Of a stretch of DNA of 35,531 bases, positions 15,735-31,042 are shown one piece after another (positions within the stretch are counted from its first letter, which is position 1; each line of letters starts with the position of its first letter). Origin of the DNA: SAR324 cluster bacterium (GTDB lineage: Bacteria; SAR324; NAC60-12); assembly GCA_022448485.1 (NCBI GenBank), contig JAKUUI010000019.1, positions 1-35,531 on the forward strand. The letters are read 5' to 3'. A model generated the notes under the pieces. That model saw only the letters and a list, made by a program, of their open reading frames with translations. It did not search any database and was not told where the DNA came from. Both the position numbers and the translations under genes were made by a program.

Positions 15735-16934
15735 ATGGCAAGAGAAAAATTTGACCGCTCAAAACCACATGTCAATGTTGGAACTATTGGCCACGTTGAC
15801 CATGGAAAAACAACGCTGACTGCTGCAATCACCAAAGTGTTGCATATGGATGGATTAGCTGAAGCAAAAGGCTTTGATGAGATTGACGGTGCACCAGAGG
15901 AAAAAGAGCGTGGGATCACCATTGCAACGGCACACATTGAATACCAGACAGCGAATCGTCACTATGCGCATGTCGATTGTCCGGGGCATGCCGATTACGT
16001 AAAAAACATGATTACCGGCGCAGCGCAGATGGACGGAGCAATATTGGTTGTGTCCGCTGCTGACGGTCCAATGCCCCAAACTCGCGAACATATTTTGCTA
16101 GCTCGTCAGGTCAACGTCCCACACCTTGTGGTTTTCCTGAACAAAGTGGATCAAGTGGATGATGAGGAACTGCTTGAACTGGTGGAAATGGAAGTTCGCG
16201 AATTGCTTGATTACTATGATTTCCCTGGAAATGACACTCCTATTATAAAAGGTTCAGCCTTGGTGGCAATGGAGAGTTCAGCAACTGATTCAAGTGACCC
16301 TGCTTATGCGTGTATCAAAGAATTAATGGCTGCAGTTGACAGCTATATTCCAGAGCCGACACGAGATCTTGACAAAGACTTCCTGATGTCTGTTGAAGAC
16401 GTATTTACGATTTCCGGACGTGGCACTGTTGCTACCGGGCAAATTGAGCGCGGGATTGTGAAAGTTGGTGAGGAAATTGAAATCACCGGAATCCGTGAGA
16501 CTCAAACCACAACCGTTACCGGCGTGGAAATGTTTCGCAAGTCACTCGATCAGGGACAAGCTGGAGACAATGTTGGAATTTTGTTGAGAGGACTCAAGCG
16601 TGAAGAAATTGAGCGTGGACAAGTCATTTGTAAGCCGGGCTCAATTACACCACACACAAAATTCAAAGGACAGGTTTATGTACTTGACAAAGATGAGGGT
16701 GGAAGACACACCCCGTTTTTTTCCAACTACCGCCCGCAATTTTATTTCCGCACAACTGACGTAACCGGAGTGGTGACTTTACCAAGTGGAGTTGAAATGG
16801 TGATGCCTGGAGACAACGTGGAAGTCAGCATTGAGTTGATCAGTCCAATTGCAATGGAAAAAGAAGTTCGTTTTGCAATTCGGGAAGGCGGACGGACCAT
16901 TGGTTCCGGAGTCGTCACTAAAGTTATTGAATAA
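15735..16934 (+). CDS. tuf: Elongation factor Tu
   Basis: [51 protein letters not shown]. Confidence 0.99.
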
Positions 16935-16951: not shown

Positions 16952-17263
16952 ATGGAACAAAAAATAAAAGTCCGTTTCAAGGCATACGACGATAAACTTC
17001 TCGATAAAACAATCGGTGAAATTGTTCATACAGTGAAACGAACCGGAGCAGAGATTGTCGGCCCCATTCCGCTCCCAACACGGAAGAACCGCTACACTGT
17101 TTTGCGTTCCCCACATGTAGACAAAAAGTCGAGAGAGCAGTTTGAGATTCGTACTCACAAACGACTACTATATATTTTGGAAACAACTCCGCAGACGATG
17201 GACGCTTTGATGCGCCTTGATATTTCTGCTGGAGTTGACATCGCCATTAAGCAAGAAGGATAA
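16952..17263 (+). CDS. rpsJ: 30S ribosomal protein S10
   Basis: [53 protein letters not shown]; start 16949 or 16952. Confidence 0.98.
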
Positions 17264-17286
17264 GGCCTTTTGAGGCAAGTAAAATC

Positions 17287-27138: not shown

Positions 27139-27522
27139 ATGGCACAGGCAAAAAAGAGAAAAGAAAAAAGAACTGTAGAACAGGGCCGCATCTATATCAA
27201 GGCCACCTTCAATAACACAATCGTGACGATTACTGATACTCAAGGCAATACAATTGCCTGGTCTAGTACCGGTGTACACGGCTTTAAAGGTTCTCGCAAA
27301 AGTACTCCATTTGCAGCAAGAGTAGCAGCAGACGATGCCTTGAAAAAGGCTGTAGACAGCGGCATGAAAAGTATTGATGTTTTTGTCAAAGGACCGGGGT
27401 CAGGACGAGAGTCTGCACTTCGTGCAATCTCAGCTATTGAAGAAATGCGTATCACGTCAATCAATGATATCACACCGGTACCTCATAACGGATGCCGCCC
27501 ACCAAAGCAACGGCGGATCTAA
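27139..27522 (+). CDS. rpsK: 30S ribosomal protein S11
   Basis: [40 protein letters not shown]. Confidence 0.99.
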
Positions 27523-27620
27523 TTACAAATGTCACCAATCGCAAAACTGTAAGGATGATAATTTCATTTTTGCAGTATTGTCTTTTTTGGTGAATATAAA
27601 CCAGAATACTTAAAACTGGG

Positions 27621-28754
27621 ATGAAGATGTCTGAAATAAATGAAACTATAGAAGCAGCAGATCCGGAGACAGAAACTGTCATGCCGGAGGAAAATGTAAT
27701 ATCCGGAACAGACTTAGATTCTGATAGTGAAGAAGGTTCCACAGGAGAAAATCCCTTCTTTGCCAAAAATTGGATGTCAATTGCAAAGCCAAAGAAACTG
27801 CAGTTTGAGCCAGAAAGTTTAAAATCTAATTATGGAAAGTTTTCACTAGACCCATTAGAGCCTGGATTTGGAATGACGATTGGGCATTCCTTAAGACGGG
27901 TCCTCCTCTCTTCAATCAGGGGTTCAGCAATTTTTGCCGTGCAGATTGACGGCGTCACTCACGAATTCAGCAACATTCCTGGCATCGTTGAGGACATGGT
28001 TCAAGTGATCCTCAATATCAAGGAACTGCAGATTGAGCAATTTGTTGACGAAGTTGTTGAACTGGAACTCATCGGAGAAGGACCTTGTATGATAAAAGCT
28101 GGAGACATTTCGACATTTGAAAAAGCAGAAATTTTGAACCCGGATCTTATTTTGGCCACTTTGCAAAAGGGCGCTACTGTCAGCATGACCATGTTTTCAC
28201 GCTTCAACAAAGGTTATGTTACCTCAGAAGAAAATCAACAGGGGGATTTGCCAGTTGGTACCATCTACCTAGACTCAAACCATTCTCCAGTCAGCAAAAT
28301 TAACTATGAAGTTGTAAACTCAAGAGTCGATCAAAAAACAGACTACGATTGCTTGAATTTTGAACTGTGGACAAATGGTTCAGTAAAACCGACAGACAGC
28401 TTGGCCTATGCAGCAAAAATCATCAAAGAACACATGGATGTGTTTATTAACTTTGATGAAGGCAGCATTAAGGATGAGCCGGAAGATGAAGCAGAAGATG
28501 AACCACTGAATGAAAATTTATATCGCAGTGTAAGTGAACTGGAACTGTCTGTCCGTTCAATCAACTGTCTGCAAAATGCTAAGATAGAAACCATCGGAGA
28601 CCTTGTCCAAAAGAGTGAACAGGAGATGCTCAAGACCAAAAACTTCGGCCGGAAGTCTTTGAATGAAATTAAAGTAATCCTGACTGAAATGGGGTTGTCG
28701 TTGGGTACTACTTTGGAAAATTTTGACTCACTGAATAACCCACACACTAATTAG
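27621..28754 (+). CDS. rpoA: RNA polymerase alpha subunit with about 45-aa acidic N-terminal extension
   Basis: NWMSIAKPKKLQFE..YGKFSLDPLEPGFGMTIGHSLRRVLLSSIRGSAIFAVQIDGV and alpha-CTD VRSINCLQNAKIETIGDLVQKSEQEMLKTKNFGRKSLNEIK. Confidence 0.97.
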   Translation: MKMSEINETIEAADPETETVMPEENVISGTDLDSDSEEGSTGENPFFAKNWMSIAKPKKLQFEPESLKSNYGKFSLDPLEPGFGMTIGHSLRRVLLSSIRGSAIFAVQIDGVTHEFSNIPGIVEDMVQVILNIKELQIEQFVDEVVELELIGEGPCMIKAGDISTFEKAEILNPDLILATLQKGATVSMTMFSRFNKGYVTSEENQQGDLPVGTIYLDSNHSPVSKINYEVVNSRVDQKTDYDCLNFELWTNGSVKPTDSLAYAAKIIKEHMDVFINFDEGSIKDEPEDEAEDEPLNENLYRSVSELELSVRSINCLQNAKIETIGDLVQKSEQEMLKTKNFGRKSLNEIKVILTEMGLSLGTTLENFDSLNNPHTN

Positions 28755-29575: not shown

Positions 29576-29669
29576 CCGCCAAATCATCCCCCTTCGAATG
29601 ACTCCTTTTTCTTCTGGAGTTCTTTTTCTCTCCCACCATTTGCCCTTTTCTATCAACAAACTGTTTATT

Positions 29670-31042
29670 ATGTCCAATCCTGTTTCCGAATCGTCTTCAT
29701 GCTCAAAGAAGCGAGTTTATTTGGAAACACTGGGTTGTTCCAAAAACCGGGTTGATTCAGAAATAATGCTGGCTAGCCTGCAAAATCAGGGATATGAGCT
29801 GACAATGACGCCGGATTCTGCAGAAGTAATTATTGTCAACACCTGTGCATTTCTGACTGAGGCTAGTGAGGAGTCCATCAACAGGATCCTTGATCTCAGC
29901 GATTTCAAAAGCAGTGGCAACTGTGAAAAGATTGTCGCAACAGGTTGTTTGACTCAGCGATATCAGGATAGTCTTGCAGAGCAAATACCAGAATTAGATG
30001 GCTTGCTAGGATCGAATGGATTTGAACAGATCCCGGAACTGGTACGCTCTATGTACGAAGGTTCCGGACATTTACAAGCATTTTTGAAACAAAAACCCCA
30101 TTACAAGCAATTTGAAGAACAGTCCCGTACACAAAAACAACACCGTACCATTATACGTATCTGAAGGTGGCAGAGGGATGTTCAAATATGTGTTCGTTTT
30201 GTAACATTCCTGCTTTAAGAGGGAATTTCAGCAGTCGCACAGTTAACTCTATCATTACTGAAATCAGTAATCTCATTGAAAAGGGTGTTAAGGAAATAAA
30301 TTTGATTTCTCAGGACACCTCATCTTACGGCAAAGATTTTAATGACAACACCGGACTGGCAACACTCTTAAAAAGCATCAGTGAAATTGAAGGAGATTTC
30401 TGGATTCGCCTTTTTTATTGCTATCCCAACTCTTTTACTGATGAAACTATGGAAGTGATTGCTGATGACAACAGGTTTTGCCGCTATCTTGATATGCCTT
30501 TCCAACATATAAACAATGAGGTCCTGAAAGCAATGAACCGAAAAATTGACCGACGACAAATAGAAAATAAGATGCAGGAAATCCGGACACATCTCCCGAA
30601 TCTAGCATGGCGCACTACTTTTATTGTTGGCTTTCCTACTGAAACAGAAGAGCGTTTTCAGGAATTACTCGAATTTGTGTCTGCAGGACATTTTCAGCAC
30701 GTTGGAGTATTTTTATACTCCCATGAAGATAACATCCGCTCTGCAAAATGGGGAGACCCTGTTCCAAATGCTCTCAAACATGAACGAAGAAATCAACTGA
30801 TGGAAGCACAACAAAAGGTCAGCATTCAAAAAAATGAAAGTTGGATTGGGGAAAAAATGAAAGTACTAGTTGATGGTGTCAGCACTGAAAGTGACTTGCT
30901 GCTTCAAGGCCGAAATGAATATCAAGGACCAGAAGTGGATGGACTGGTTTATATCAATGAGGGGACCGCTCGCCCGGGAACTTTTCATACTGTTGAAATT
31001 TCGAAAGCCTACGAGTATGATTTAATTGGACGAATTGTCTGA
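29670..31042 (+). pseudogene. rimO: Ribosomal protein S12 methylthiotransferase RimO, interrupted by a -1 frameshift at about 30116-30161
   Basis: ORF1 RVYLETLGCSKNRVDSEIMLASL..NTCAFLTEASEESI, ORF2 YTYLKVAEGCSNMCSFCNIPALRG..; both halves intact and in different frames. Confidence 0.9.

Follow-up and report, generated by a model that had tools for sequence, protein, structure and literature searches.

The stretch of DNA analysed here (the window; 35,531 nucleotides from a SAR324 cluster bacterium) carries a str-S10 gene cluster on its forward strand. The gene encoding EF-Tu, tuf (15735..16934, an ORF of 399 aa), is the upstream neighbour, likewise in SAR324 relatives, and is followed by rpsJ, encoding ribosomal protein S10 (16952..17263, from an ATG at 16952 to a stop codon ending at 17263; a full-length ORF of 103 aa, also recognised by tblastn synteny), rplD (L4; 17287..17913, a full-length ORF of 208 aa), rplW (L23; 17910..18197, an ORF with matching synteny in SAR324 relatives) and rplB (L2; 18215..19033, an ORF), and the S10-spc genes downstream are in canonical order. 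The gene that is missing is rplC, encoding L3. Its position in most bacteria, between rpsJ and rplD, is represented in the window by 23 nt of intergenic DNA (17264..17286, ggccttttgaggcaagtaaaatc) which include a GAGG Shine-Dalgarno-like motif for rplD. The first-pass annotation had described these 23 nt between a full-length S10 end and the L4 ATG, with coordinates and sequence exactly as we find them, and its claim that the window holds no L3-like ORF is borne out by the ORF list, as none of the ORFs of the window encodes L3. The order rpsJ-rplC-rplD is among the most stable gene orders in bacteria, and L3 is an essential protein which acts early in the assembly of the large ribosomal subunit. 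The S10 operon of E. coli consists of the same genes in the same order as in SAR324 apart from rplC, which in E. coli is located between rpsJ and rplD and on the same transcript as both.

The source assembly is a MAG of 2.70 Mb, in 246 contigs and 86.9% complete. The whole genome was searched for L3 with PF00297, as the first-pass annotation had advised, and exactly one match was obtained (C1:72749-73000, 57.4 bits against a curated cut-off of 22), on a different contig from the S10 cluster. The corresponding rplC is full-length (C1:72461-73078, an ORF of 206 aa) and, when aligned with L3 of E. coli and others, its product contains the conserved central region GSIGQ..TP.RVFKGKKM, the part of L3 that reaches the peptidyl transferase centre. 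Its neighbours are a divergent mltG-like gene and a short ORF of no recognised function; no ribosomal genes lie next to it. Named loci coding for an L3 of 85-95% identity come for the most part from SAR324 cluster bacteria, and one carries the name Candidatus Lambdaproteobacteria.

We then consider the same two loci across SAR324, in a sample of 52 genomes from 26 genera and four families, almost all of them MAGs. Nine of the 52 were uninformative, with one or both of the L3 and L4 genes missing from the assembly; L3 and L4 are apart in all genomes having both genes (43/43), and where the two are on one contig the distance between them is 182 kb (G005) or 306 kb (G033). S10 is followed directly by L4 and L23 in 46 SAR324 genomes, with EF-Tu upstream wherever the contig extends far enough, and the gap between S10 and L4, mostly below 50 nt and 97 nt at the maximum, is far too short for L3. 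Since this direct junction is shared by so many genomes, the empty position is neither a matter of chance nor a local artefact. An assembly error at the junction was also ruled out by synteny and identity across the relatives. One could still suppose that the assembly lost rplC from between rpsJ and rplD, or that the contig with the solitary rplC is a contaminant, as the window is one contig of so fragmented a MAG. However, the junction and the displaced gene are both common to independently assembled relatives, the displaced L3 shares 85-95% identity with the L3 proteins of the window's genus, whose genes have the same neighbours, and in the long contigs of G005 and G033 both loci are on one molecule, which makes an artefact of either sort extremely improbable. 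The first-pass annotation had set a moved rplC against a clean deletion in the assembly, favouring a real rearrangement, and had suggested a comparison of the junction in relatives, among which any with rplC in place would have spoken against it. Its preference was correct: this genome has its rplC at another site, both the direct S10-L4 join and the displaced gene recur in dozens of relatives whose assemblies are independent, and no relative with rplC in place was found within the SAR324 phylum. That the move extends through the phylum and recurs in others was not visible from the sequence of the window.

The departure concerns a single gene, as rplC is gone while the flanking operon is contiguous and ordered, and all other S10-spc genes searched are canonical in SAR324. 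Such single-gene departures are known: 48 single-gene deletions from the cluster were catalogued in Gammaproteobacteria and Bacilli, rplC being absent from the main text of that report, and for rplJL in Haemophilus influenzae and secY in Bacilli duplication was followed by loss (PMC8046335). SAR324 resembles the 'deletion' class of Brandis (PMC8046335) in that a gene has departed, its former neighbours in the cluster have joined and the cell relies on a copy at another site; in that class the departing gene is a ribosomal or secretion gene and long-distance transfer need not be invoked. A copy of rplC is indeed found elsewhere in the chromosome. SAR324 differs from those cases in the gene concerned, rplC, and in having the new arrangement fixed throughout a phylum. 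Lineage-wide translocation of S10-spc-alpha cluster genes across the genome was described for Borrelia and Treponema (PMC2481283); the passages concerned name genes of the 3' end (adk, infA and rpsD) and make no mention of an S10 operon opening at rplC. In a literature search that was thin on subscription journals, we found no report of rplC displacement in SAR324 or from the S10 operon. Thus, the kind of event is known, and it is the phylum-wide instance involving rplC for which we found no report.

When did rplC leave the cluster? In the L3 tree (all tree supports given here are SH-aLRT values from quick trees) the SAR324 sequences are monophyletic (SH-aLRT 98), and each family forms a sub-clade among them. 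This monophyly and family structure lead us to conclude that rplC departed before SAR324 diversified and was then inherited vertically. Inside SAR324, L3 is monophyletic and congruent with the families; for the position of SAR324 relative to other phyla the protein is not long enough. Very probably, rplC left the S10 cluster in the SAR324 ancestor, becoming a stand-alone gene with separate control. The gene could instead be foreign, acquired at the new site after the native rplC had been lost. Its G+C content (48.5%) exceeds that of the cluster genes (43.5%, sd 2.7); the best L3 matches outside SAR324, among the best 80 matches, come from Cloacimonadota and Actinomycetota (~50-55% identity); and in the L3 tree SAR324 falls close to FCB-type phyla, weakly (SH-aLRT 84). 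However, matches taken from the best 80 only are biased to conserved L3, and a grouping of SAR324 with FCB is not rejected by the cluster proteins either (AU p 0.35), so that no conflict with L3 is demonstrated. The SAR324 L3 is moreover deep and monophyletic, and we consider a foreign origin improbable.

For the departure of a native rplC in the SAR324 ancestor, the most likely route, judging from the rplJL and secY events, would begin with an intrachromosomal duplication that placed a second rplC beside a usable promoter; a duplication intermediate was seen in no genome. The copy in the cluster would then have been cleanly lost, bringing rpsJ and rplD together, and the dosage of L3 would have come to be set by the gene's own promoter, and probably by its own 5' leader, instead of the S10 operon transcript. 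The neighbours of rplC are constant within the window's genus (with mltG divergent) and different in other genera and families; therefore, the gene has stayed solitary or has been re-shuffled since.

Candidate control signals accompany the solitary gene. A promoter-like site, TTG(T/A)A-N16/17-TANNNT, lies ~75-85 nt before the rplC ATG in 13/13 genomes of the window's genus, where the surrounding sequence has diverged; it was found by alignment, and the strict rule of a generic promoter scan did not list it. In genera g24 and g25, four of the five rplC loci have a site matching the consensus TTGACA-18-TATAAT at 12/12 positions. A Shine-Dalgarno sequence is present ahead of the solitary rplC, and in many loci terminator-like hairpins occur just past its stop codon. 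A small hairpin in the 5' leader is found in ten genomes of the window's genus, with 95.7% of cells paired versus 35-54% when the partner is slid, and with weak covariation. No Rfam ribosomal-protein leader was detected at gathering thresholds in eight rplC loci or in the window, upstream of rplC or of rpsJ. Taken as consensus matches, the promoter and terminator sites suggest that the solitary rplC is monocistronic and separately controlled. In loci of genera g24 and g25 (L028, L029, L031, L032 and L091) we also noticed that a leader sequence beside the Shine-Dalgarno, next to the start codon (CAGATCATATTTAGG), is complementary to a sequence of the 3' UTR in the ~70 nt that follow the stop codon (CCTTAAATATGATCTG). 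This complementarity is better than that of shuffled sequences (z -2.4 to -3.6), and in L032 both sides have changed in step (TTTGGG/CCCAAA); it may represent a 5'-3' UTR pairing or a regulatory element of the solitary rplC.

Outside SAR324 the usual order prevails, with L3 beside L4 in 148 of 153 loci of other phyla. A solitary rplC was seen in five sampled genomes of other phyla, and the direct S10-L4 junction in the four of these with L4 found. Two of their phyla were followed further. In the first, phylum A, to which G158 belongs, L3 is separated from L4 in 11/11 informative genomes, three of which are single-contig assemblies; in one single-contig genome of this phylum (G289) they are 1.7 Mb apart in linear coordinates. 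The same separation is found in 4/4 genomes of the second (phylum B). No rplC neighbours are common to SAR324 and the other displaced lineages. We also built trees on 3,150 columns taken from 21 cluster proteins. Phylum B stands apart from SAR324 in them, and one common origin for SAR324 and phyla A and B was rejected on these columns (AU p 1e-5), while with shorter data sets it was not. As one origin for all three is rejected, the displacement happened at least twice, and each time it is fixed in a phylum-level group.

The position of phylum A also bears on the age of the event. SAR324, phylum A and G142, a genome with normal order, meet at one unresolved node of the 3,150-column tree, and a tree constrained to group SAR324 with phylum A is only 1.1 log units worse and is not rejected (AU p 0.375). 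Given this, and the separation of L3 and L4 in every informative phylum A genome, the displacement may predate SAR324, as one event in a common ancestor with phylum A that was retained in both. However, a clade of SAR324 and phylum A is without positive support, the two have no rplC neighbours in common, and the trait can recur, because phylum B acquired it independently. We therefore regard a shared origin as a serious possibility, if an unlikely one. More doubtful is the fuller proposal that the loss of rplC from the cluster was a rare change in one ancestor of SAR324 and phylum A, marking the sister group of SAR324, and that the freed gene evolved its own leader-based control.

With rplC leaving the cluster in the SAR324 ancestor, as we prefer, a phylum that lives with an unlinked rplC shows that the linkage is dispensable. 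The displacement supplies a rare character of gene order that can help to place SAR324, and the phylum is a natural test of how the supply of L3 is matched to that of the other large-subunit proteins. In annotation, the gap between rpsJ and rplD should not be read as the absence of an essential gene or as a defect of the assembly.

Further features were noted in the window and in a relative. The gene for S4, rpsD, is missing between rpsK and rpoA (27522-27621), and the single S4 gene is on contig C225. It is kept in the cluster in the two f2 genomes and in two of the f3 genomes examined (L291, L293, L289 and L290) and is also absent from the cluster in some SAR324, separately from rplC; its displacement looks like an event separate from, and younger than, the move of rplC. 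The RpoA ORF (27621-28754) has an acidic N-terminal extension of ~50 aa ahead of the usual protein start, and the L17 ORF (28769-29575; 268 aa) is ~2x the usual length, with a long Glu/Lys-rich C-terminal tail. Two genes have broken reading frames. In the relative G005, tuf (L038, 2477-3622) is in pieces in different frames, probably through sequencing errors of that assembly. In the window, a rimO-like gene (29598-31042) is divided between two ORFs in different frames (188 + 291 aa) with the break around 30150, an apparent frameshift just ahead of the CxxxCxxC motif which is either an assembly error or a real mutation.
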